Positions 8,880 through 53,900 of a stretch of DNA of 64,000 nt are shown one piece after another. A program made the position numbers and the translations under genes. A model generated the notes under the pieces. The model saw nothing but the letters and a program-made list of their open reading frames with translations. It was not told where the DNA came from and made no database searches. Numbering within the stretch: the first letter of the stretch is position 1; the number at the start of each line of letters is the position of its first letter. This DNA is from [Phialemoniopsis] sp. UDSM-2020 (Eukaryota; Ascomycota; Sordariomycetes; Thyridiales; Thyridiaceae): contig JAEILZ010000004.1 of assembly GCA_018873225.1 (NCBI GenBank), positions 310,001 to 374,000 on the forward strand, given 5' to 3'.

Positions 8880-9835
8880 ATGGCCACAGACACCGAATCA
8901 GCAGCCAACCGCTTGCAGGACTTGGACAAGGCCGACGACAACGCTAATGACGCGATTGCAGCATACACCTCCTTCATCAGAATAATTGCGAAAATACATG
9001 ACCTCGATCTGGAATATCCTCCGGAAGGAGGTTGGCCAACAGTCACCCAACGCTGGATCGAGCTTCGCGGTTTCGGCCCCAAAGGTGCCGATTTCATGCG
9101 TCGCGTGCCTAAATTAGTTGGCGGTGACGCTGTGCCCATCATGAAGGATACCAATTTCCAATCCCCCATCCCCGAAGAGGAACATATGCATCTCTATGAT
9201 GAGCAAGACAAAGAACTTACAGCGGAGGAAAAGGAGTCGCGCGACAGATGTGATGAGATCCTCGACTGGGACGGATTGCCGCCAGGGTGGATTCTCATCT
9301 CCTGGGGCGAGCGTTACAGATACGAGATCTGGCTAGACATTGATGGGGACGCTGTTCTGTGGTGGCCACGCACAGGTGCGCCCTATGGCAAGGGATCTTA
9401 CACGGGGGATCTCGAGCCGTGGGATCCAATTGCCGACACGTCCCCCCCGGATGAGTGGAAATGCATGCGTCGATTTCGGATCAAGACATTCTTCGACATG
9501 GTCGTAGAGCAGTTCACAGTCATGGTAAGTCATCAGGGAGCAGCCGACATCTATGACAACACTGATTCATGTGCGTGCAGAACTTCATGCCACAACTTGA
9601 GGGGGGAGGCATCGAGGAGGTTGAACCGTGGGGACAGCCTAATGAGGAGCAAAAGAAGAGAATGCAGATTCTGATTGATGCAGGCTGGCCTGGGGATGAC
9701 TTCGACAGGGAAAAGGCTGAAGAGGCAATGGAAGCATGGGGGGAGTCGGGTTACAAGACCGACGATCAATCAAGCTTCTCGAGCAGAGTGGTTGGAATGC
9801 TGCAAGGGTTGCTCAGTAGGTTCCATTTGTACTAG
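8880..9835 (+). CDS. SUKH (SMI1/KNR4)-like protein
   Basis: Two exons (8880-9524, 9581-9835; intron GTAAGT...GTGCAG) encode 299 aa without a signal peptide. The acidic N-terminal half is helical-looking. The segment LPPGWILISWGERYRYEIWLDIDG (split here as residues ~133-144 and ~145-156), then AVLWWPR, IADTSPP and a RFRIKTFFDMVVEQF helix, follows the order of SUKH domains (LPP turn, aromatic beta strands, acidic turn, final 'SF..fL' helix). SUKH proteins include yeast Smi1/Knr4 and many bacterial immunity proteins against nuclease toxins. The start ATG has a good context (aaaATGG). The family call rests on pattern only. Being divergent from a nuclease-like secreted protein raises the possibility of an immunity role. 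Confidence 0.5.
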
Positions 9836-10218
9836 GTTACTATGGATGATCTCACATAAGAACTATCACAAACGCAACATTGGAAAAGGCCATCGATCAT
9901 TTGATTGTTTATGCATGCTTTCCACGTGAAGTCTGAGCTCTCTCGCACGCCTCCAGATTGACCCAGGTTGAGGAAGCACACGGTCCGACAGTGCCCACAC
10001 TTATGCAGACGTCCTGATCCGGGCAACCTAAACAGACCACTTATTCGTCATGTTATCCTACAAGTCGATAGTGTATTGCCAGGCTCGAAGTCCCTGCCTG
10101 GGTAAACATCTCTAGCAATTCGTTATCGAGCTAGCAAATCAAACCGCAGTGATAGCCATGATCATCACTCCGAATGATCATACAGACTGGGCTTAGCTCA
10201 ATCAAGCCCCCGCATCAG

Positions 10219-10230
10219 CGGCACTGTATC
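10219..10230 (+). promoter_or_regulatory. CGGNAYTGTATC site 1
   Basis: CGGCACTGTATC, 183 nt upstream of the M20 amidohydrolase start. It is one of seven matches, all in promoter regions of the nitrogen-salvage cluster. A CGG triplet is the usual half-site of Zn2Cys6 proteins. Confidence 0.55.
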
Positions 10231-10236
10231 TTGCGG

Positions 10237-10248
10237 CGGGATTGTATC
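10237..10248 (+). promoter_or_regulatory. CGGNAYTGTATC site 2
   Basis: CGGGATTGTATC, only 6 nt after site 1 and in the same orientation, giving a direct repeat upstream of the M20 amidohydrolase gene. Confidence 0.55.
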
Positions 10249-10412
10249 TAATCTAGCGCTTCTCCGGAGTGTCCATGACAGTATGTTACTCTTACTTGTG
10301 TGATGGTACATATTTTGGCATGTAAGCGAGCGGGTGCCTCTGAAACGACTCAGGTCCCTTTGTGGGCTGAATACCATTGATTGCCCTCTCGTCACTCTCA
10401 TTCATCAAGACA

Positions 10413-11865
10413 ATGGCTCTGCTGACAACCCTTTCTGCTGCCAGACTCGCTGCCCGCGCCTCCAGACCTAGTCTCAGCGCAGGAGCTTTACAGACTTCTG
10501 TTTCCCTGTTTTGTGGTTCAAGCCGGCCTGTCGCAGCCCATCGGCATACTTCGACGCTTCTCAAAGTAAATCAAACACGCCTCTGGGATACACTCCATCA
10601 TACCGCTCAGTGGGGTGCCACTCCCGACGGTGGCATCAAGCGGCTTACCATGACTGATGAGGATAAGTCCGTGCGGGACTGGTTCGTCACCGTAGCCAAA
10701 TCTCTCGGCTGCGACGTCAAGATCGATGAGGTCGGCAGCATCTTCGCCATCAGACCGGGACGAGATCCGACCCGCGCGCCCATCGGCATCGGATCTCATC
10801 TCGACACCCAGCCGGCCGGTGGTCGTTACGACGGCATTCTCGGGGTCCATGCGGGGCTCGAGGTACTGCGCGTGCTGCAGGAGAACGACTACCAGACCAA
10901 CGCACCCATCGCCGTCGTGAACTGGACGAACGAAGAGGGCGCGCGCTTCAACACGGGCATGCTAGCGAGCGCAGTGTGGGCGGGCAACGAAACGCTCGAG
11001 CATGCGTACGGGCTTAAAGATGCCGAGGGCGCAACCTTTCTCGGCGAACTCGAGCGCATCGGATACAAGGGCCCTGTGAGAGCAAGCCACAAGGCGAACC
11101 CGCTGTCTGCGCACTTTGAACTGCATATCGAACAGGGTCCCGTGCTGGAAGACACGGGAAAGGCTGTCGGCGTGGTGACGGGTGTGCAGGGCATGGGATG
11201 GCTGATGGTCACGGTTGACGGCAAATGTCAGCACTGTGGCACGACACCGATGGACAGGCGTTCGGACGCCTTGTTGGCAGCATCTAAGATGATCTCGCGC
11301 GTCAATGGGATTGCTCTTGAGGCGGGTGGCATGAGCACGGTAGGCGTAATCAACTCTGAACCGCAGAGCCCCGGAACCATCCCCGGAAAGGTGACATTCA
11401 GCGTGGATCTGGAGCATCTGGACAATCCTGCACGAGACAAGATGATAAGGGTCACTCGAGAGGATTTCGCGAGAATAGCGAGGGAAGGATCTTGTGAGGT
11501 TGAGATTGACGACATCTGGGCCAGTCCAGGTGTCAGATTTGACCCCGACTGCATCAGTTGCGTCCGCGAGGCAGCTATCGATCTGGTAGGACCTGATGGA
11601 TTTGCTGAACTTCCGGCAGGGGCTGGGCACGATTCTGTCAACACTTCGCATATCTGTCCAACCTCTATGGTGTTCATCCCCTCAAAGGGTGGCATTTCCC
11701 ATCACCCATCCGAGTATTCGAGTCCTGAGCAATGGTAAGTGAGCACTTGCCCCGTTGTCGGTGCGAATAGTTTACTGATCATAAGGCAGTGCGCTTGGAG
11801 TTCAGGTCTTGCTGGATGCTGTCATCAGATACGACCAGTTGGCATCACGGTCGCCATACCATTAG
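10413..11865 (+). CDS. M20-family N-carbamoyl/ureido amidohydrolase
   Basis: Two exons (10413-11734, 11790-11865) encode 465 aa. The N-terminus MALLTTLSAARLAARASRP is basic and Ser/Ala-rich, like a mitochondrial presequence. The dinuclear-metal core of the hydantoinase/carbamoylase subgroup is complete: GSHLDTQPAGGRYDG (His, Asp), NEEGARF (Glu pair), HIEQGP (His) and SHHPSEYS near the end of exon 1 (His). QCALGVQVLLDAV after the splice completes the C-terminal helix. Relatives are N-carbamoyl-L-amino-acid hydrolase, beta-ureidopropionase, allantoate amidohydrolase and ureidoglycolate amidohydrolase. With allantoicase nearby, an allantoate- or ureidoglycolate-like substrate is plausible, but the motifs cannot separate these. 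Confidence 0.88.
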
Positions 11866-11940
11866 TTACACCCCGAAGACTGAGCATGGATTGATACAGC
11901 TAGAGATAGAAGATACATGATATGTCCCACATCTTTCTAC

Positions 11941-12678
11941 CTACAGGTCATAGATGTTCTGTGGAAGATAGTCGGGAAATAGCCATGATAGCCCATCATC
12001 AAACATTTGCCATGGTTGAGAATGTGTGATGTCTGAAAACGCCGCTAGATCATGAAGCTGAGGATGTGACGCTCCTGAGCTGCCGTCGCAAGATTGGTAG
12101 GTTTGACCGAGCCGGGCAGATTCCTGTCCGAGAGTTGGCTCCAAAGGAATGCCCGACAGCGTCCCGTTGAAGTGATTTGAGCTACCCATTGACTCGTCTG
12201 ACCACGAGTCGGCATCGTTAGGCGAGTGAAAAGCATAACGAGACAAGACATCGGCGTTGGTCAAAGTGCCATTGACTTCAAAGCCGTATGGTGGACGGGA
12301 GTCATTGCAGATGTCGCCGGAGTATAGGGGTTTATACGATTGTCTGCGTTCAGTTTCCTCGTCTTTCTTTGCCTGCGAGGTCTCTTGAGCCACCATGCGG
12401 TCGACTGTCACGGTGGTACAACACCGGCCGAGACGGCTGCACTTGGTGCACTTCTCATCTCCAGCATCCTTGCGTACGCAGCGGATCTTTCTTGTCCTGC
12501 AATAATCTTGACAATGGATTTCAGTATATGCTGGCTGGATTTGACGCGAAAGGTCAAAGATCTTACCACATGCCAGGGAGGCCCGGTAATAACCCAGCTT
12601 CGACCCGCGAGACTGTGCCTTGGAGCCAACACGTCCGCAAAGGGTGGATGAATTCTTCTTGGTCAGCACTCGAGACAT
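11941..12678 (-). CDS. short Zn2Cys6 transcription factor, candidate cluster regulator
   Basis: Two exons (12678-12567, 12506-11941) encode 225 aa. Splicing out the 60-nt intron is what restores the zinc cluster: ACDYC + RTRKIRC + 9 residues + C-TK-C-SRLGR-C, at about residues 37-66. Without the splice the first cysteine pair is lost. The rest is hydrophilic and Ser/Asn-rich and ends with an aromatic acidic tail (FDDGLSWLFPDYL), which could be an activation segment. There is no fungal-specific TF domain, so it is a minimal-type regulator. It is convergent with the M20 gene, 75 nt between stops, and lies inside the catabolic cluster, so a pathway-specific role is likely by position. Confidence 0.8.
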   Translation of the reverse strand: MSRVLTKKNSSTLCGRVGSKAQSRGSKLGYYRASLACGKIFDLSRQIQPAYTEIHCQDYCRTRKIRCVRKDAGDEKCTKCSRLGRCCTTVTVDRMVAQETSQAKKDEETERRQSYKPLYSGDICNDSRPPYGFEVNGTLTNADVLSRYAFHSPNDADSWSDESMGSSNHFNGTLSGIPLEPTLGQESARLGQTYQSCDGSSGASHPQLHDLAAFSDITHSQPWQMFDDGLSWLFPDYLPQNIYDL

Positions 12679-12977
12679 GGAACGAGAATCTGAACAGCAA
12701 ATTGAACGAGTTGTTACTGCTCCAAAAACGTAATGAGGGAATGTGAAGTTCGGAACCACGCGGGGGAACGGGGAACACTGCTTATCAGCAAGTGGAGGAG
12801 AACGGGGAAGGGATGTGGACCCAGGCAAGATAAGCAATGGTGACTTGGTTGACAAGCTCGTACACTAATGAAGCTGATATGACCCTTGATAGCGTGGCTA
12901 AGATAGGCGATTCCCCAGACATTCCGGGGTAGGCCGATCTGTCGTCGGATATGCCCACCCCAGTTTTTCCTCGCCCG
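12679..12977. other. short spacer upstream of the Zn2Cys6 regulator
   Basis: This 299-bp spacer contains the regulator's promoter and the 3' flank of the AroM-family gene. No copy of CGGNAYTGTATC is present, so self-regulation through that word is not indicated. Confidence 0.4.
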
Positions 12978-13697
12978 TCAGGTTTGGCCCTCTCTTCGAA
13001 TCAGGTCCACCACTAAGGCCTTCGCTCCAAGTACTTCGAGGCCCTCTTGTTCCAATACCTGTCCTTGTGCAATAGAGTAGCCAAAACAGTCCAATAGTAC
13101 CGTCTGAACGCCCTGCTGCCGTAGCTCCCTGCCCAATGCAGTCCATGCTTCCAGGTCGGCAGTGGGTCCGATGGTCAGAGCACGAACTTGGGCGCCTGCC
13201 GGGAGTCTACTCTTCCATCTGTCTGTGAGCGGCTGCGTCTGTTGGGGGACGGGGCACAAGACTGTCACTTGTTCATCTAAGGCCCATGCCCGCTCAGCCG
13301 CTGCGGCCGCGAGCACTTGGCCTGGGAGAATGTGTCTGATGCCGCCTGCCGAGCTGTCCAGCTTGAAGTCTGTGGTACAAGTCACCACGGCAATGCTTGC
13401 TCCCTCAGCCGCAGCAGTGCTGAGGGCTTTGTTCAGTTCCGGGGTGAGCTTTGCGTGTGACACGAGGATATCATCACCGGCCCCGTTGCATGATCGGAGG
13501 GGCATCTCGTAGCTCTCGGGGGCAAAAAGCGTTGCAAGCTCTGCAGTAGGGTAGGCGTCGAGAGGGGCGACGGCGATGATATTCCATCCATGAGGTATAA
13601 GAGAAGCAAAGTCTGGGTCGATCTTCGATGATGGCTGTGTTTGACCAATATCGAGGAGAGCCACTGTGCCCTTCTGTCGTGACGCCTGGGTCGACAT
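12978..13697 (-). CDS. AroM-family protein (Asp/Glu-racemase-like fold)
   Basis: Intronless, 239 aa. It starts with TVALLDIGQTQPS, the AroM-type N-terminal strand, and contains VVTCTTDF (C107) and VLLDCFGYS (C204). The two cysteines sit where Asp/Glu/hydantoin racemases carry their catalytic Cys pair. AroM proteins are best known from bacteria, where their function is poorly defined. Here the gene lies between a Zn2Cys6 regulator and an NCS1 permease in a cluster with a hydantoinase-like enzyme and allantoicase. Bacterial hydantoin and allantoin loci often include a racemase of this superfamily, so a racemase-like role is a reasonable inference. Lack of introns and the mainly bacterial family would fit an old transfer, but that needs a tree. 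Confidence 0.75.
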   Translation of the reverse strand: MSTQASRQKGTVALLDIGQTQPSSKIDPDFASLIPHGWNIIAVAPLDAYPTAELATLFAPESYEMPLRSCNGAGDDILVSHAKLTPELNKALSTAAAEGASIAVVTCTTDFKLDSSAGGIRHILPGQVLAAAAAERAWALDEQVTVLCPVPQQTQPLTDRWKSRLPAGAQVRALTIGPTADLEAWTALGRELRQQGVQTVLLDCFGYSIAQGQVLEQEGLEVLGAKALVVDLIRREGQT

Positions 13698-14110
13698 GGC
13701 TGGCTTGGTGGAAACCTGATGCGATGAAGGTAAGATAGCTGATACAAGGTAGAAAAATTGGTGTTTCTTCTGTGTAGATGCGAAAAGGATGGTGGATGGT
13801 TTGGTATTTATGCAATGCTCTTAGGTAAAGTCGTTCGGAAATTCACTCGTTGTTGCGGGTCTAGCGAGGCAATAGACCAGGTGAACGAAGTGTCTACCCA
13901 CTTATTATCAAATCCATCCTGATGATGGCTTCTAGATACAATATTCAGAAAAAGAAATAAAGTGGATATTGATTAACAAGATATTCTCGGTACCCAAACG
14001 CTATCAACAGACTACGGAACGTCAAAGTACAAGGGCATAGCGAAATCAAGAACAAAACGTTCCGATGACCTGAACTTTCATGTCGGCTGTGCATCCGCGG
14101 AGGGCGATGC
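13698..14110. other. intergenic between AroM-family gene and permease
   Basis: No gene is seen. I found no full CGGNAYTGTATC match on either strand; GATACAATATTC near 13934 matches only the TGTATC part in reverse. Confidence 0.4.
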
Positions 14111-15802
14111 TTACAGCTTGCCGATAGCTTTGGTAGAGTCGATGCGGTCTTCCTCGACACTATCTGCCTGTTCCACAACAGACATGCCATCGATAGAATC
14201 ATCTAGACCCGAGGCCATCTCCTCCCACTTGAGTCCAGCGATATTCTTGACGTTCTGATGAGGCCAGATCTTGACGAGAACGTAGTAGATCACCCAACCG
14301 CTCACAAAGGTCAAAAACCAGCCCAAATATCCCAGCTTGACACCGGCATCCGGCACCTCGGCGCCGACTTTGTTCACGAAACCAATCATGCACAGGGCGA
14401 CAGACGCAAGGTAGGCGATATATGCCTGGATGTTCCAGCCGCCCGTATACCAGTAACTCTGGTTCTTGGAGTTGCCCACGTAGATACTTGGCACAAACAC
14501 GTTGCCTTTGCTGATGTTCCAGTATTCGCATAGCATTATGCTCACCGCAGGGCCCATGAAGATGCCATAGGCTCCCATGAAGTTCAAAAACGTCTCGGCT
14601 GAGACGTAGATCTTCCAGGGGCAAATGCACCATGCAAGCAGGTGAACAATGATGTAGCCGCGAGTCATGGTTAAATGCCGGGGCCAGAGCATGGACGTGT
14701 CGGAGCCAAAAGGGATCAGGTTGGAAGAGATATTTTGGCACAAAGTCTGGAAAGCCCACACTAGCGCCAGCAGGAAGACGCCAAAACGGGCCCCTGAGTT
14801 CCAGTGTTGCTCCAGCATGTACGACATGATGTCCCATGGCTTCCAGAGCGTCTGGCCGGATGAGCTTTGTAACGCGGATGTGCCGAGAATGCCGAGAACA
14901 GCGGACAGGGGGTTGAACAAGACATTGCAGAATAGGACAGGGCCCATAATGGCCGTTGGCGTGTTGGACCAGCGGGCCATGTCGGGGATAGATTCGATGT
15001 AAGGTGAGCCGTTACTGATGGACGAGGTCATGGCATAGACCACGAGCCATCCCGTCTTGCTGCTGCTCAGCTCTCCCGTGTTGTCGAAATCCCCCAGGCC
15101 AAGCTTGCCCTTGGAGCTGGCGATGCAGTAGATGAAGAGCCCTAGGATCGCCGGGAAGCAGCAGACACAGGCCATGGTGAACAGCAGCTTCATCTGATGC
15201 GGGCGGCGGAAGAGAAACGGAATGTAGATCAGCCAGAACAAGAAATAGCACAGAAAGTCCTTCGTTTTGTATCCGATACTGGCCGGTACATGGTTCGGCA
15301 TATCGGTGTAACTGGAACCAAAGATGGCCTTCAACATGATGTCGAGATAGCTCGCACCCTCATACATGCGGGTGGCGTACCACACTGCAGCGAGGATAGC
15401 ACGAACGGCGACCTGGTAGGAACTCCCCCACATGCCGTAGACGGTACGAGCCACGGCCGGAAAGCCAATATGGTAGCGAGCAGCCGCCTTGGAGTTGGCC
15501 GCCTGGACGCAGCCGCTCAGGCTGGAAGTGACAAAGGCAATGACAATGGCGACTTTCCAGCCGAGCCCCACACCGATGACACTGCTTCCGCCTTGCCAGT
15601 TGTTGAATCCGGTGCCGATGAAGTAAAGGAGATAAGTGTGCCAGTGCCATGTACGCTTGCTCGGGGGCGTGGGATCCATGTCTTGGTTTGACCATATTTG
15701 GCCATTCGAGTCTTCCAAGTTGGACTTTTCGACTCGAAGGTCGTCTCGGAGCCGCTGACCCCAGGTGTGGAAGCCACTCTTGGCCTTCTGTATAACAGTC
15801 AT
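14111..15802 (-). CDS. NCS1-family nucleobase/allantoin/hydantoin permease
   Basis: Intronless, 563 aa from the ATG at 15802; an in-frame ATG 27 nt upstream would add 9 residues. Roughly 12 hydrophobic segments are visible. Family marks are DMDPTPPSKRTWHWHTY before TM1, FNNWQGGSSVIGVGLGW in TM1, AARYHIGFPAVARTVYGMWGS and AAVWYATRMYEGASY. This matches fungal Fur/Dal-type nucleobase-cation-symport-1 carriers, plasma-membrane importers of uracil, allantoin or uridine; the bacterial hydantoin carrier Mhp1 is in the same family. The substrate is inferred from the neighbouring hydantoinase-like enzyme and allantoicase: allantoin or a related hydantoin. Two CGGNAYTGTATC-like words lie 180 and 370 nt upstream. 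Confidence 0.9.
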   Translation of the reverse strand: MTVIQKAKSGFHTWGQRLRDDLRVEKSNLEDSNGQIWSNQDMDPTPPSKRTWHWHTYLLYFIGTGFNNWQGGSSVIGVGLGWKVAIVIAFVTSSLSGCVQAANSKAAARYHIGFPAVARTVYGMWGSSYQVAVRAILAAVWYATRMYEGASYLDIMLKAIFGSSYTDMPNHVPASIGYKTKDFLCYFLFWLIYIPFLFRRPHQMKLLFTMACVCCFPAILGLFIYCIASSKGKLGLGDFDNTGELSSSKTGWLVVYAMTSSISNGSPYIESIPDMARWSNTPTAIMGPVLFCNVLFNPLSAVLGILGTSALQSSSGQTLWKPWDIMSYMLEQHWNSGARFGVFLLALVWAFQTLCQNISSNLIPFGSDTSMLWPRHLTMTRGYIIVHLLAWCICPWKIYVSAETFLNFMGAYGIFMGPAVSIMLCEYWNISKGNVFVPSIYVGNSKNQSYWYTGGWNIQAYIAYLASVALCMIGFVNKVGAEVPDAGVKLGYLGWFLTFVSGWVIYYVLVKIWPHQNVKNIAGLKWEEMASGLDDSIDGMSVVEQADSVEEDRIDSTKAIGKL

Positions 15803-15979
15803 TGCTGGGACGATAGAACAAGATAACAACAGGTGGATGTCGACTCAAGTGTTGCCATAGAATTATTTCTTTCACCTGAAGCAGGGTCGATCCTTGAGAT
15901 TATATCACTTCGTGAGAAGCCCAGCCCTCCAGAACGGCCGGGGGATCGTAATGTCTGACCATCCCCCTTTCGATGATAC

Positions 15980-15991
15980 CGGGACTGTATC
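15980..15991 (+). promoter_or_regulatory. CGGNAYTGTATC site 3
   Basis: CGGGACTGTATC, 178 nt upstream of the permease start codon, which lies on the opposite strand. Its last base begins a CGATAA GATA-factor core. Confidence 0.55.
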
Positions 15992-16169
15992 GATAAGAGC
16001 ACACCCCCTGGTTGGACTCGCGCAAGCTTGGGAAGACTAGCGTGGATAATACGCCGCGGGGCGAGGTCTTATGTTGGGTGACTAGGTTGTCAATGTGGGG
16101 AGGTGTTATCAGGTCGGGGATGGATAGATCCGCAACTAAGCTTGGTTTAGAGGGTCAACACTCTGAGCA

Positions 16170-16181
16170 TGGCACTGTATC
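16170..16181 (+). promoter_or_regulatory. CGGNAYTGTATC-like site 4
   Basis: TGGCACTGTATC, one mismatch in the CGG triplet, 368 nt upstream of the permease start. Confidence 0.4.
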
Positions 16182-16306
16182 GAGTGTTTGCTACCTTGCT
16201 GCGTTCTCAAATGATCTTGTGAAGTTCAGAAACGCTAGCCGTATGATATGTCGTCCTCTACAGTGCGTTTTTGTATAACAACAGCAGATAATTTTGCTAT
16301 CGGGCT

Positions 16307-18024
16307 CTAAGGTTCTACGGGACGCCACTCGCTGGTCCAGACGTTTCTAGATCCTGGCAGAGATGAAGTGCCTCGCTTGACAAACTGGCCAAACGATGAA
16401 CTCCCGATGATTTTGCCTTCACGATACACAACCTTGCCACGGAGAATGGTGTACTTCGGCCAGTTTCTAAACGTTCTGCCTTCGAAGGGTGTGTAGTCGA
16501 TCCTGTGGTGTAACATCTCGTTTCGCAGCTTGAACGGCGCCATTGCGCCCTCCGGATACCAGATCGTTATGTCCGCGTCGAATCCAGGTGCGAGGCATCC
16601 CTTCTTCTCCAGCCCGTACAGCTTGGCCGGATTTGTCGAAGTTAATTCCACAAATTTCTGAGGCGTGATCCGTCCGTCCAGTACACCCTCAAAAAGGAGC
16701 GGCAAGCGTGTCTCGAGGCCCGGCAAGCCATTGGGTGTGTGACTGAACTTTCCCTGAGGAGCATTCGTGCCTTGAAGACCTTTCTGTTTGCCATGTGGGT
16801 GGTGGAAGCTGGCGGGTGCATGGTCCGAGGAAACAATTGTAAATGTACCATTCTGAAGCCCGCGCCACATCGCCTCGAGATCAGAAGAGCCCGCGCGAAG
16901 CGGAGGAGAGCAAACGCACTTGGCCCCTGTTTGAAGATGTTACTATAAGCGTGATGCGTTGGATAGCGGCGAGATGCGTTACAAAGCATACCTTCAAAGT
17001 CAGGTCTTCGCATCGCTTCTGCCATTAAATAGAGGTAATGTGGACACGTCTCCCCGTGGACTGGAAGAAGTCTAGTCTGAGCGTTTCGAATGGTAGTTGC
17101 GGCGAGCTCACTTGAGACATGCACCAGAAGGATAGGCGTGTCCATGAGCTCAGATAGACTGATGACTCGATTCTAAATACACTTGATTAATTCCACAACT
17201 TGTCAAGCGAAGGCTATTGAGTTGAAGCACTTCTACTTACTGTAGCTTCCGACTCAACGAGCGGTGGTCTCGATGTCCCGTGGTGGTACGGCGCCGTCAT
17301 GCCTCTCTTCTCCAACTGCTCAGTCATCCACTCTACCACATCCGCATTCTCAGCATGGACCATCGTTGTGATCCCAAGGCGTCGAGCTACATTCATAACG
17401 TCTAGGATCTGGTAGTCGCTGAGACGTGCCGATGCATACGTCATGTAGATCTTGACGCTTGTGATGCCGTACTCTTCGACCATGGTGCTCAGATCATGCT
17501 CTAGGACCTGCCTTGTTGGATTGGTGATGATGGCGTGGAAGGCATAGTCGCAATAGGCCTGGCCGGCGGCTAACCGATGATACTCGTCCACAACCGGCAC
17601 AAGACTCTCATCGGCGCGGTGCTGCTGCGCAAAGCTGATGATGGTAGTTGTCCCGCCGGCGATGGCGCTGCGCGTGCCGCTCTCGTACGTGTCACCGGCA
17701 AAGGTGTGCAGATCAGGAATCTTTCCATCAGTAGCAATGGTGACCTGTGGCTCGCCGGGCCCGGGGTCGTGCCACTGCGCGAGGTGGACGTGAGCATCCA
17801 CGCCTCCCGGTGTGACGTATGCGCCCTCGGCATCGATCTCTTCTGATTTTGAAGCCACTGGGATGTTACTGCCAAGAGCTATAATCGTTCCTCCCTACGT
17901 ACTGTCAGTAGACGACCTCATCAATCTGTTCGCGATTCACTACCTTGATGACAATGTCACAAGCCGGCCATATGTCGGCCGCGGTGACTACCGTCGCCCT
18001 TCGTATCACAAGATCTGCATCCAT
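16307..18024 (-). CDS. hydantoinase/dihydropyrimidinase-type amidohydrolase
   Basis: Four exons (18024-17944, 17894-17241, 17172-16992, 16926-16307) encode 511 aa; all three introns are 49-68 nt and keep frame. The metal centre of cyclic amidohydrolases is complete: DAHVH (H62, H64), VKIYMTY with the carboxylated lysine (~K175), MVHAEN (H207), LLVHVSS (H263) and SSDHAP (Asp). GETCPHYL and FEGAKCVCSPPLR are typical of D-hydantoinase/dihydropyrimidinase. The C-terminal part (APGFDADITIW) closes the beta-sandwich. It opens a cyclic ureide (dihydropyrimidine, hydantoin or allantoin). Next to allantoicase, an allantoinase-like role is possible, but the motifs fit hydantoinase better. It shares a 612-bp promoter region with the divergent allantoicase gene. 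Confidence 0.9.
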
Positions 18025-18210
18025 TTCGTTTTGCCTAGTGTGTAGCTTCTTTGTCGAGTCCAGTCTTGACCCTTCAATATACCAGTCATGTTTCAAAATG
18101 TGTGCAAGACCGTTGGTGTTCAAACGACAATGCCTAGCTACTCCTCGATGACCCCCGGTCTAAGCTTAACCCGCTATCACTTTCAGGGGCTCGGCCATCT
18201 CTTTCCCAGG

Positions 18211-18222
18211 CGGTACTGTATC
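18211..18222 (+). promoter_or_regulatory. CGGNAYTGTATC site 5
   Basis: CGGTACTGTATC in the divergent promoter, 187 nt from the amidohydrolase start. Confidence 0.55.
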
Positions 18223-18299
18223 GATGGTGTGATGGCTTCTCATTGGACGCATCGGGGTCGCCCCGTTGATAGTCGGACCCATCCTTATCTTCGCCCGGA

Positions 18300-18311
18300 C
18301 GGGACTGTATC
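18300..18311 (+). promoter_or_regulatory. CGGNAYTGTATC site 6
   Basis: CGGGACTGTATC in the divergent promoter, identical to site 3 upstream of the permease. Confidence 0.55.
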
Positions 18312-18438
18312 TCCAGCCACTCTTCAATCCGGGGGTAAGCTCCTCCGCAAGATAGCTTGTACAACTTCGAGATTGACTAGTGTCTACAACGATGGCTAGT
18401 GTTCCTCTGGAATAGTGCCAACACGCAAGATGTGGAAT

Positions 18439-18450
18439 CGGTATTGTATC
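18439..18450 (+). promoter_or_regulatory. CGGNAYTGTATC site 7
   Basis: CGGTATTGTATC, 187 nt upstream of the allantoicase start codon. Confidence 0.55.
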
Positions 18451-18636
18451 TCTTGGGGTGTGTGACTAGCACCATGTCTCAACGAGGCTAGTCGTTGACG
18501 TCTGGGAGTGATTTAACCACCAAAGTGAGTTTAGCAGTTTAACAGTTGATAAAACATACACAATTCTCAGGAAGACTTAATTCAGGATGCAGGATTTTTC
18601 GCCATCGTGATCTAGCCTTCAAGAAGTGTAACGAAG

Positions 18637-19746
18637 ATGTCAGAATATCAGACCGTCGATGTTCCTGTCACACCCCTTTCAGGGGAGGAGATTGACACAA
18701 CGCTGAAGGCTGAGACCATCGGTAGGCATTGCTTGAATTCCCCCTTTGACAAGAAAATGACCAGCTGACTGCCTGCAGACCTCATCTCTGCCTCTTTAGG
18801 TGGCCGTGTGCTCTCCTTCTCCGACCAGTGGTTCGCCGAAGCCAGCAACCTCATCAACCCCGCCAAGCCCATCACCATCCCCGGCAAGGTCGTGTACACA
18901 GGAGGCTGGTACGACGGCTGGGAGACGCGCCGGCACAACCCGAGCCCATTCGACTACGTGATCATTCGCCTAGGAGCAACATCAGGCATCGTGTCCGGTG
19001 CCGAGGTCGATACGGCATTCTTCAACGGCAACGAGGCGCCGGCCATCTCCGTCGAAGGTTGCGTATCGGACGACGACGACCAGGTCGTGAGCTGGGGCGC
19101 CGAACGCGGCGCATGGAAGACCATCATCGGCTACCAGCCCTGTGGCCCCAACAGGCGCCAGGGCTGGCGGCTGCAGGACCCGACCACCAAGGCCTACACG
19201 CACATCCGCCTCAATATGTATCCTGACGGTGGCATCGCCCGGTTCCGCCTGTACGGGCGGGTCGTGCCCGTATTTCCGACGGATGCGGCAGCCGAGGTCG
19301 ATTTTGCCGCGACGATCTACGGCGGCCGCGCTGTGCGCTGGAGCGACCAGCACTTTGGCGGCGTGGACAGGCTGCTGCTGCCGGGGCGCGGCAAGGACAT
19401 GTCTGACGGCTGGGAGACGGCGCGGTGCCGGGTGCCGGGTCACCGGGACTGGGTCATTGTAAAGCTTGGCGCAAGGGCGAAGGTCAGTAGGATCGTTGTC
19501 GACACTGCGCACTTTCGTGGCAACTATCCTGAATCCGTTATCGTACGCGGTCTGGACTATAGTGGAGAGGCAGAGCCTGGATATGAAGAAACATCCTGGA
19601 TAGATCTCGTCGACAGATCAAAGTGCCAGCCAGACAAGGAGCACGAGTTTCTGAGCCAAGTCACGACCCCTATTACACATGCCATGCTAGTGATGATACC
19701 GGACGGTGGGATCAAGAGATTCCGGGTCTTTGGTACAAGAGTGTAA
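18637..19746 (+). CDS. allantoicase
   Basis: Two exons (18637-18721, 18779-19746) encode 350 aa. The 57-nt intron joins ETIG|DLISASLGG exactly. Allantoicase is a tandem duplication, and both copies are visible: YDGWETRR followed by FDYVIIRLG and VDTAFFNGN in the first half, then SDGWETAR followed by RDWVIVKLG and VDTAHFRGN in the second. Each copy ends with a PDGGIxRFR motif, and length is normal for the family. The enzyme converts allantoate to ureidoglycolate and urea in purine catabolism. It is divergent from the amidohydrolase gene and is the firmest functional anchor for the cluster. Confidence 0.95.
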
Positions 19747-35233: not shown

Positions 35234-36267
35234 CTTGCTGACTCAAGTGAAGAGAAAGATTTCCTGTTTGGGCCAGAGTAACACTGCCGAAGCGAGACAG
35301 ATTGATTGTCTTAATTGCCCGGGAAGTTTTCCAGAATGTCTCTGTGTATCAAGGGATATACAAGAAGAAACACCGAGAGATGGATATTAAACAATGGGGG
35401 CAAAGAGGTAAGAAGGAGGATATGTGCAGTTGCAGGTGGGAAGAGGTTGAAGCTGCTTGGATGTGGACTTTTCCAAAACGAAGTAAAATAGGCAAAGTGC
35501 AGGGTGGTCAGTGTCGTCAAGTATTCGGGGTCCCTGTCGACGTGATTGTATCCTACCTGGCGCCAAGGCCGCAAGCCAGAAGGTTTAATTTTTGTTCCTC
35601 TTGTGTTGGAGAATGGGGAAAAAGGGACAAGTCGAGGCAGATTCCCTTGCCCAGTCGATCATAGGAAGTGGCCGAAGTGGTAATAGAAGCGAGACATGAG
35701 AGAGACAAGCGTGCCAAATGGATGGCGTTGTCCCTGGTTCTCGGGACCTTCTTGATATTTGGATTAAGGTTGGGGTAGCGGTAGCTTGATCGACTTACAA
35801 GAGCCTACATGCATGCAACGGCCGAGCCCACCAGGGCAGAGAGAGGAACAACGGCACTAGGCCCCAATATTGGGGGGGTGTATCTAAGGGAGGGCGTGGC
35901 AGATGTAGATGCCATGCCAGGCGAGGCCGCCGCGTGCCCCATCTCAAGATACAAGTACATGTAGACGTACAAGGGGGGACCGGGGTGTGTGTGGTGGAGG
36001 AACTACTGGGCTAGCTCGCAGAAGAGCATGGGAGACCTTCCCGGTGAAGGACACAAAAAGGTCGGCAAGGAATTCAAGCTACCCTGCCTGAGTGAGGTGG
36101 GTGCAAGCAGACAGTGCAGGGATACCATGGCCATGCAGGCCAAGCATCAACAGCCCATGGCCTGCATCGTAGATTTGAGAGAGAGAGGGAGATGGAGGGG
36201 TACATCACAGCCTCTCTCTGTGTATCTCGTCTCTTCCCAAAAGGGACAAAAGATGGCGTCCCAACAG

Positions 36268-50915: not shown

Positions 50916-53900
50916 TTAAACGTGCGAAGCCCACACACTACCCGACATGCCCCCATTCGCCTCGAGCTCAAAACCCCTGATATTCTCTCCAAAGTTCTGC
51001 CAGTCAAAGTTGTCGTCCATGTTGACGTCCTCCCCAGGCGCGGTAGGCATCACAGCGCTGGCTGCTGCGCCTGCGCTGGGCATGACGCCACTGGGAAAGT
51101 GTCCCGCGGCAGCAGGATCCCCTGCAGCCAAACCCGCCGCGGCGTAGGGCGAGTTGTCAAAGTACGGCGCGCTGGGCCACAGCCACGGTGGCAAGTCGTC
51201 CTTGTGCAAGACCGGGGCGTTGGCAGTGGGCGCCTGCTGTTGTTGCTGCTGAGGCGGCACGGTCGTAGTCGGGACGTCGATGGGCCAGGTCGTTGCCCGC
51301 GTCGTGGCTGGGGTACCGCCGCTCATGCTCGTGGCGCTGCTTCCCGTCGGGGTAAGTCCGGACATGGCGGTATTCCCGCCGTTGTTATTGTTGTTGTTTT
51401 GCTGGTTGTTACTTTGTATGTTCAAGGTGTGGGGAGGGTAGTTGAAGACGCCCATCTGCTGGACATCGTTGGCGAGCTCGTTTGAGTAGATCATGGGGAT
51501 CCAGTCGGCGGGCTCAAATGCGGGCTGAGACATGATGGAGTCCATGAAAGAGTAGAGACCCTTGGTGCGCATCTGCTCCTCCACGGTCGGCGGATTTCTG
51601 GCGACGCCGGCGTTCTGCGTAGCGGCCGGCTGTCGGCCTGTCGGCCGTCCGCCTTGAGGCGCCTCGGCCCACGTAAGCTGGGCCGCGGGTTGTTCCGCCG
51701 GTGCGGTAGCAGGCTGACCAGACTCTGCCGTCGCCTTGGCCTTGGCCTCGTCCTCCTCCTTCCACTTCTGCCGCAGATGCGGCGGCGGCTCCCCAATCCT
51801 GTCGAGCGGCGGGTCGCCGACCAGCACGCGCCACCGCTGCCGCGCGGCCAGACTCTTCATCCCGCCGCGCATGCCGTCCATCGACTCGGGCGTCGCCTTG
51901 ACGCGGTCCTCGCGGTCGAGCTCGACGGCGGCCTGCGGGTCGGCCTTGAGGCGCGCGAGCTCGGTCTCGCGGTGGCGCCGGGCTTTCGCGTAGAGCTTCT
52001 TGAACGGCAGCCAGATGGCCGAGTGCTCGGCCATCTTCTCGATGTCGAGCGTCGAGTTGGGCGCGAGGAAGGCGGCGCCCAGGGCCGCCCACGCGCGCTC
52101 GACGCTCGCGCTCCAGGGCCGGTGCGCGACCTCCATCATGACGTAGGCGACTGCGTGCCACTGCGTGTACGTCTGGAAGATCCAGCGGTACTGCCTCGTG
52201 CGCGGGTCGCTGTTGAGCAGGTGGTTGTACTCGAAGATCTCGGTCGCCGCGGCGAAGAGGCGGTCGCGCACGTCGGCCGACAGGTCCTCGTTGCCCGGGC
52301 CGCGGAACAGGAAGGGCTGGTACAGCACGAGGACGAGCTTGGCGATGATGACGCGGGCGACGTTGGCGGCGATCCAGAAGAAAGGGTTGCTCTCGAGGGA
52401 GCTGTCGCGGAAATACTTGTTCTCGATGCGGCTGTAGACGCCGCGCAGGACCGTCTCGCGCAGCTCGAGCGACTTGAGCGCGTCCTCGGGGCAGGCCTCG
52501 GAGCTGCCTGCTGACGTGGCCGTGTGTAGGCGGCGGCCGACTTGGCAGATCTCGCAGCGGATCACGGTGAAGGTGGTGTCGGTGGAGCCAGACCGTTCGG
52601 GCGGCAAGATCTTGCTGTCCGGGCTTATGTCTTCGTCGTTGATGTTGAGGGGTATGCGTGTGTCGTGTGTCGACTCGAGTATCGTCAGGTCGGTGCCTTG
52701 GTCTTCGGCCGAGCGCAGGTCGATCATGCAGATGGCCCACCAAAGGCGGCGGCGCATCTCGATCTCAAACGGGGTGAGGTTGTCAAAGTTGGTACCGTCG
52801 CGCTGCAGGCCCATAGACTGAGCAATACGGATACCCAACCCAGTCAATGTCCAGGCAGACCGGGCATCATCGTTTCGCCGGACAAAGGCCAAGTAGAGCA
52901 CAAATGCCTGCAGTGTTGTTAGGTCAGAAGAGGTCAGGAACTGAGCTCGTGCAAGCGCCTGCTCGAGTGCAAAGCGGTGTTGCGCAAGCAGCTTTGTCCG
53001 GTCGGCATTGAAGTTGATCTTGACCTACGGGAAGAGTCAGCATAACAATTCGCCCTGCAAGTAAGAGCAAGCAAAACTCACATCCTCGTCATCCATCGAA
53101 GTAAGGGCGCCGAAATACATGGCAAACATAAGCGCCTCGGACTGGGGCGTGAGGCTGTCCAGATTCCTCGACGAGCGCACCAGCTTGTCCATGGTAGGCC
53201 CGTGCAACACCTTAACGAGGGGATCTACATTCTCCTGGTATATTTGCCAGAAGTACAGCGCTTGCGAGGGCAACGGATGGAACTTCTTGAGATCGAGATC
53301 GCAAGAGCGGTACCCAAAGAGAAACGCGTGGTGAACGGCTTGCGAAGAGTTATCAGCGGGCTCCTCCACGTCGCTTCCAGCCTCGGAATGGTCAGTGTCG
53401 TCTGAGTTCAAGCCAGACTCGGCACTGGCGCGCAGTTCGTCCAACTGTTGCAATATAGATTAGCCATGTCCCACACAGTCGCAGTTCGTTGGGGAAAGGG
53501 CAGACAAACCTCGTCATTGATCTTGGACCAAAACGCGCTGCTAACATATCGCGTCTTGCCCGCGTCGTTTATCACCAGCCGACCAAACTTCTTCTGCACC
53601 TCGCCAGTCAGGTTCCGCTTCGGCGGCGGGAAGGTCGAGTTGTATCCGGTGATAAAGATGCCCGAATTGGGCGGACACGACGGGCTGTGACCCTCGTGCG
53701 TCTGGGCGGGCGAACCCTGGCTCCTGTTGCTCCCGCCGCTCACGCTGCCCAGCCTGTGATCCGCCACCGCGCTTCCCGACCCTCCTTCGCCAGCGCCGTA
53801 CGTCGCCTCGGGCGAGTTACCGCTGCTCGACTGGTGCCTCGACGTCTCGACCTCAATCTGGCCGCTCAGCTCCTCGACGATGCCCTCGAGCTTGCGCAGG

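Follow-up and report, generated by a model that had tools for sequence, protein, structure and literature searches.

Which factor controls a gene cluster of the fungus [Phialemoniopsis] sp. UDSM-2020 that likely serves hydantoin or ureide catabolism, and what does that factor bind? The cluster lies in a 64,000-nucleotide (nt) stretch of contig JAEILZ010000004.1 (positions 310,001 to 374,000; "the window") and encodes an M20 carbamoylase, a short Zn2Cys6 protein, an AroM-family protein, an NCS1 permease, a hydantoinase, and an allantoicase. An original prediction had singled out a 12-base-pair (bp) word in its promoters, CGGNAYTGTATC, as the operator of the short Zn2Cys6 protein. We found this word exactly six times in the window, every time on the plus strand, where 0.03 matches were expected and none of 100 shuffles reached six. 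With both strands searched, these six are the total of exact matches. One-mismatch matches were found at 16170, where TGG replaces CGG, and at 35541 (plus strand, CGTGATTGTATC). The six exact copies and the TGG copy are spread over three intergenic regions of the hydantoinase, carbamoylase, permease, and allantoicase genes. The predicted positions were therefore reproduced, and the claim that the 64 kb hold no other full match was borne out, with the one-mismatch match at 35541 left unlisted there.

The seven cluster copies scored between 16.55 and 18.89 bits; the invariance of TGTATC among them is partly a consequence of how the word was defined. With up to two mismatches allowed, the window held 34 matches compared to 22.6 expected. 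The signal therefore sits in the near-exact copies. All seven copies are on the plus strand, whereas each strand encodes two of the four genes. Orientation relative to the gene is therefore not fixed, and the same reasoning on strands led us to reject an RNA element. The match at 35541-35552 lies outside the cluster, about 230 nt upstream of an open reading frame (ORF; 35310-33640) with a forkhead domain. It is unremarkable because the genome-wide rate predicts about 1.5 one-mismatch matches per 64 kb.

As the word had been picked post hoc, we measured enrichment with the best 12-mer pattern of equal makeup, that is, ten fixed bases, one free base, and one two-fold base. The best pattern of this degeneracy in the cluster segment was the word itself, with 6 copies. 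Among 26 equally long control segments, 19 of which were loci around word copies elsewhere in the genome (each holding one copy) and hence not a random sample, the best pattern reached 3 copies in 21 segments and 4 in the other 5. Of 300 dinucleotide-shuffled versions of the cluster, 285 gave 3 and the remaining 15 gave 4. From the density of copies outside the cluster, 0.004 exact copies would be predicted in 8.2 kb.

The position of the copies is also conserved. One copy per gene lies 183, 178, 187, and 187 nt from the start codons of the M20 hydrolase, permease, hydantoinase, and allantoicase genes, a spread of 9 nt. Spacing this tight arose in 19 of 40,001 random placements with the same copy numbers in the same regions, in a test that was devised after the data were seen and that depends on the start codons modeled here. 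The copies predicted at about 160 to 195 nt upstream of four start codons were found at 165 to 187 nt with these models. No flank column of the seven copies exceeded 1.1 bits, and because the flanks differ, the copies do not represent fragments of a single duplicated repeat. Taken together, we are highly confident that the word is a nonrandom, position-conserved promoter element common to four genes of the cluster.

Across the 44.18-Mb genome we counted 28 exact copies, the 6 of the cluster plus 22 others, compared to 24 for the reversed word as a control. With one mismatch allowed, there were 1006 matches versus 925 for the control. As there is no general excess in the genome, the cluster is the place where copies concentrate. 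The word is thus confined to the cluster within the window, as had been claimed, but not in the genome. The promoter of the M20 gene holds the genome's only pair of GGNAYTGTATC within 1 to 30 nt of each other (copies 1 and 2; none for the control). Nineteen of the 22 outside copies were examined with 10 kb each, leaving two on C10 and one on C11; 13 of the 19 lie outside and 6 inside ORFs of at least 150 amino acids. We scanned 20 ORFs at 14 of these sites (the neighbors of 13 sites and one ORF overlapping an inside site) and found none with a hydantoinase, M20, NCS1, allantoicase, or uricase domain. The closest thematic neighbor was a nucleoside-hydrolase-like Sde182 domain (locus L026), whose gene ends towards the site. 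The scan for damaging matches elsewhere, which the original prediction had proposed, therefore returned a number close to chance and no pathway domains beside the copies scanned.

The genome also encodes a second allantoicase (C5:2994023) and a uricase (on C1). At these two loci and at those of the two nearest hydantoinase paralogues, with about 1.5 kb beyond each match covered, no site scored above 12.94 bits. Within the stretches covered, a regulon reaching other purine or ureide genes was rejected, as this best site falls below the range of the seven copies.

Table 1. Copies of the word and genes of the cluster in window coordinates. Distances were measured between the ATG and the edge of the copy closest to it; start codons are those of the gene models of this analysis.
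Feature	Position	Strand	Details
Word copy 1, CGGCACTGTATC	10219..10230	+	exact; 183 nt to M20 ATG
Word copy 2, CGGGATTGTATC	10237..10248	+	exact; 165 nt to M20 ATG
Word copy 3, CGGGACTGTATC	15980..15991	+	exact; 178 nt to permease ATG; HGATAR overlaps at 15991
Word copy 4, TGGCACTGTATC	16170..16181	+	one mismatch; 368 nt to permease ATG
Word copy 5, CGGTACTGTATC	18211..18222	+	exact; 187 nt to hydantoinase ATG, 415 nt to allantoicase ATG
Word copy 6, CGGGACTGTATC	18300..18311	+	exact; middle of divergent hydantoinase-allantoicase promoter; 276 and 326 nt to their ATGs
Word copy 7, CGGTATTGTATC	18439..18450	+	exact; 187 nt to allantoicase ATG, 415 nt to hydantoinase ATG
Partial copy without CGG, GAATATTGTATC	13935..13946	-	promoter of possible racemase gene
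Second partial copy without CGG, CTACCTTGTATC	13741..13752	-	promoter of possible racemase gene
M20 amidohydrolase (hydantoinase/carbamoylase family)	10413..11865	+	PF01546, 76 bits; intron 11735-11789
Short Zn2Cys6 protein, 225 amino acids	11941..12678	-	intron 12566-12507
AroM-family protein, possible racemase	12978..13697	-	PF07302, 94.8 bits
NCS1 permease	14111..15802	-	PF02133, 258.1 bits
D-hydantoinase/dihydropyrimidinase	16307..18024	-	TIGR02033, 439.9 bits (cut-off 393.25); four exons modeled
Allantoicase	18637..19746	+	TIGR02961, 384.4 bits (cut-off 277.9); PF03561; intron 18722-18778

If the word is an operator, what reads it? The short Zn2Cys6 gene lies between word-bearing genes, as had been noted, and requires a 60-nt intron with GT...AG ends to give a spliced product of 225 amino acids. 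Its six-cysteine signature is intact: the cysteines at residues 37 to 67 follow C-X2-C-X6-C-X9-C-X2-C-X6-C, which fits the Zn2Cys6 signature C-X2-C-X6-C-X5-12-C-X2-C-X6-8-C. Ahead of the zinc cluster, residues 1 to 36 form a basic stretch with 8 Lys/Arg and no Asp/Glu, while the last 40 residues hold 6 acidic residues and no Lys/Arg. The Fungal_trans middle domain, which is usual but not required, was not found, and PF00172 was the sole family matched at an E value of 1 or less. The RK of the segment CRTRKIRC aligns with the RK of Hap1; the Hap1 and Gal4 alignments have E values of 0.26 and 0.66, which are meaningless by themselves. In Gal4, a Lys contacts CGG, according to a report on Pho7 (PMC5559640). 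By our own matching of the numbering, the Lys of CRTRKIRC would sit at that place. The linked 225-amino-acid protein is thus a plausible reader of the word, and we lean slightly toward it being the actual one.

Several results weigh against this assignment or against the word behind it. The PF00172 match scored 19.9 bits, narrowly under the cut-off of 21 (E value of 8.2e-4). None of 93 candidates was a homologue of the protein at an E value of 0.001 or less, and the genome has no close paralogue of it, with a best match of 50% over 38 residues. Counts by Hamming distance separate the cluster less well, with 5 matches at distance 1 (at most 4 in controls) and 8 at distance 2 (up to 10 in controls), a distance at which such a count is insensitive as an enrichment test. 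Copies that lack CGG or its C (16170, 13935, and 13741) are odd for a protein that reads CGG. The promoter of the short Zn2Cys6 gene (12679-12977) has no word at up to two mismatches; because of this, autoregulation through the word is not expected. Finally, what is probably a full-size Zn2Cys6 gene lies some 16 kb left of the M20 gene.

The last two of these points also favor a reader encoded elsewhere, either by that full-size gene to the left of the window or by an unlinked one, with the short gene as a bystander or partner. We consider this a serious but unlikely alternative. The full-size gene is probably formed by adjoining ORFs at L009:1892-4401 (minus strand; G000:C6:301892-304401), whose Zn_clus and Fungal_trans domains score 33.2 and 40.1 bits, respectively. 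A precedent is UaY, whose gene is unlinked to the purine genes that it controls. Against a reader encoded elsewhere stands the location of the short Zn2Cys6 gene amid the target genes. Moreover, none of the five intergenic regions of the cluster (9835-10412, 12679-12977, 13698-14110, 15803-16306, and 18025-18636) contains the UaY site, TCGGN6CCGA, and CGGN6CCG does not occur in the three bearing the word. UaY control of the cluster is not supported, as its site is missing. CGGN6CCG does occur at 12925-12936 in the promoter of the short Zn2Cys6 gene, where it resembles but does not match the UaY site; this occurrence is weak, as the window holds 36 strand-wise counts of the palindromic pattern. 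Another ORF of the window, 50916-53024 (minus strand), has a Fungal_trans domain. The control of purine genes by UaY in Aspergillus nidulans is described in a paper on the hxn genes (PMC5746545).

We also asked if general nitrogen control could act on the cluster. The consensus for GATA factors of the AreA type is HGATAR. The five cluster intergenic regions, 2406 bp in all, hold 22 such sites (9.1 per kb), about 3.5-fold more than the 2.65 per kb in 51 kb of background, defined as DNA outside ORFs of at least 100 amino acids and not as proven promoters. The sites number 4, 4, 3, 6, and 5 per region, with 0.8 to 1.6 expected in each. No set among 20,000 drawn at random from the background segments matched this density, and of the 78 segments, 3 were at least as dense as the cluster region with the fewest sites per kb. 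This enrichment supports nitrogen control.

The promoter of the possible racemase gene (13698-14110) has no word copy at up to two mismatches. It does carry YTGTATC twice without CGG, where 0.065 were expected (P of about 0.002 for that region alone, in a test made after the data were seen). The 9-mer ATTGTATCT is common to the partial copy at 13935 and word copies 2 and 7 and is absent from the rest of the window outside 9835-18750. The TGG at 16170 and these two partial copies speak against the original reading of CGG as the Zn2Cys6 half-site. Similarly, four genes share the word, but a regulon of the whole cluster was overstated, because two of the six genes, those for the regulator and the possible racemase, lack it.

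These partial copies bear on a second alternative, in which the word is a composite of two contact sites with a fixed spacing. A Zn2Cys6 protein would contact CGG and a GATA-type factor GATAC on the opposite strand, and pathway-specific and nitrogen control would thereby meet at one site. TGTATC is GATACA on the opposite strand, and each of the 9 copies present in the racemase promoter and the three regions bearing the word shows HGATAC, for which our own arithmetic gives a chance of about 0.06. The racemase promoter with its two TGTATC parts and the HGATAR sites nearby also fit. However, GATAC should be a poorer site for GATA factors than GATAA/G, the intervening bases (A, Y, T, and G) are conserved when a free spacer would not need them, and the racemase test was post hoc. 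We regard a composite as quite improbable. A bolder version, in which a minimal 225-amino-acid activator without a middle domain reads an undescribed asymmetric 12-bp composite of CGG and GATACA while the racemase copies answer to the GATA side alone, seems a shade more doubtful still. That the word is a coincidence picked by eye from 64 kb is very improbable, for while the genome-wide counts show no excess, the search over all patterns gave at most 4 copies in shuffles and controls versus 6 here, and the four ATG distances agree within 9 nt.

We return to the reading of the word as the operator of a cluster-encoded, pathway-specific activator. Beyond the copies, their excess and position, the Zn2Cys6 signature, and the HGATAR excess, which were observed directly, we infer how such a system might bind, activate, and respond. 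The activator, most likely the 225-amino-acid protein, would drive the M20 hydrolase, permease, hydantoinase, and allantoicase genes jointly. The asymmetric site may be bound by a single DNA-binding unit, with the zinc cluster reading the G-rich end (CGG) and the basic N-terminal arm helping to hold AYTGTATC. With a ureide or hydantoin present, the acidic, aromatic tail would then activate transcription, and an AreA-type GATA factor may act alongside when preferred nitrogen is scarce. For this proposal as a whole, including mode, inducer, and the part of AreA, we see the case as evenly balanced.

If the pairing of word and regulator is true, a ready-made and narrowly delimited regulon would be available in a non-model fungus, each of its targets having a predicted site. 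After Pho7, this would be the second Zn2Cys6 protein with a long asymmetric site, and the genes would likely represent a cluster for hydantoin or ureide catabolism. Pathway-specific fungal regulons, in which a cluster has its own regulator and promoter word, are already well known as a general idea. In titles and abstract openings of the literature, we found no description of this word or of a fungal cluster of such makeup, and by title nothing on TGTATC as a site in connection with fungal promoters or transcription factors.

How does this arrangement compare with known systems? In bacterial hydantoin-utilization (hyu) clusters, the hydantoinase, carbamoylase, racemase, and NCS1 permease genes stand side by side. 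The present cluster differs in being fungal, in including allantoicase, and in having an AroM-family protein where a hydantoin racemase is usual. It resembles the DAL cluster of yeast in that ureide genes are clustered in a fungus, but here the amidohydrolase matches D-hydantoinase, and not allantoinase, over the cut-off, and an AroM-family protein adjoins. The UaY regulon shares Zn2Cys6 control of a ureide-producing pathway but not the site.

Asymmetric sites with a single CGG are known from Pho7 and TerR, which we group here with AlcR as monomeric readers. Fission yeast Pho7 (PMC5559640) is a Zn2Cys6 protein whose 12-nt site, TCG(G/C)(A/T)xxTTxAA, is asymmetric; two of its sites hold a single CGG, and monomeric binding is raised as a possibility. 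These features recall our case, but the word is another one, Pho7 has Asn where Gal4 has its CGG-contacting Lys and the 225-amino-acid protein has Lys, and the pathway is phosphate rather than nitrogen. TerR of the terrein cluster (PMC4360782) is likewise a cluster-specific Zn2Cys6 regulator with sites in cluster promoters; its binding domain is monomeric, and a basic stretch before the zinc cluster, also present in the 225-amino-acid protein, is needed for tight binding. It differs in that its best sites are direct CGG repeats (TCGGHHWYHCGGH) and in its role in secondary metabolism. The hxn nicotinate cluster of A. nidulans is a catabolic nitrogen cluster that is coregulated by the cluster-encoded HxnR and the GATA factor AreA (PMC5746545). 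The logic of a specific factor plus AreA is the same, but HxnR is a Cys2/His2 protein and the pathway is that of nicotinate.

With regard to the enzymes, candidate substrates of the pathway are hydantoin, allantoin, or a dihydropyrimidine. The M20 protein is over the cut-offs of both TIGR01879 and NF006769; the latter, a subfamily named allantoate amidohydrolase, gave 460.7 with a cut-off of 452. Its best solved relative is beta-alanine synthase (1r43), and that of the hydantoinase is dihydropyrimidinase (2fty). The cluster amidohydrolase is under the allantoinase cut-off (TIGR03178, 236.1 < 357.85). Racemase activity of the AroM-family protein is a guess; among 7998 scored candidates of the protein collection, it has 3 relatives at 53 to 55% identity. 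The same genome has a second AroM-family gene (G000:C1:4635488-4636153), and the cluster one is more divergent from the family model (94 versus 246 bits). The hydantoinase has paralogues at G000:C8:25633-26820 (56%) and C4:3491095-3492588 (48%), the former about 25 kb from the contig end.

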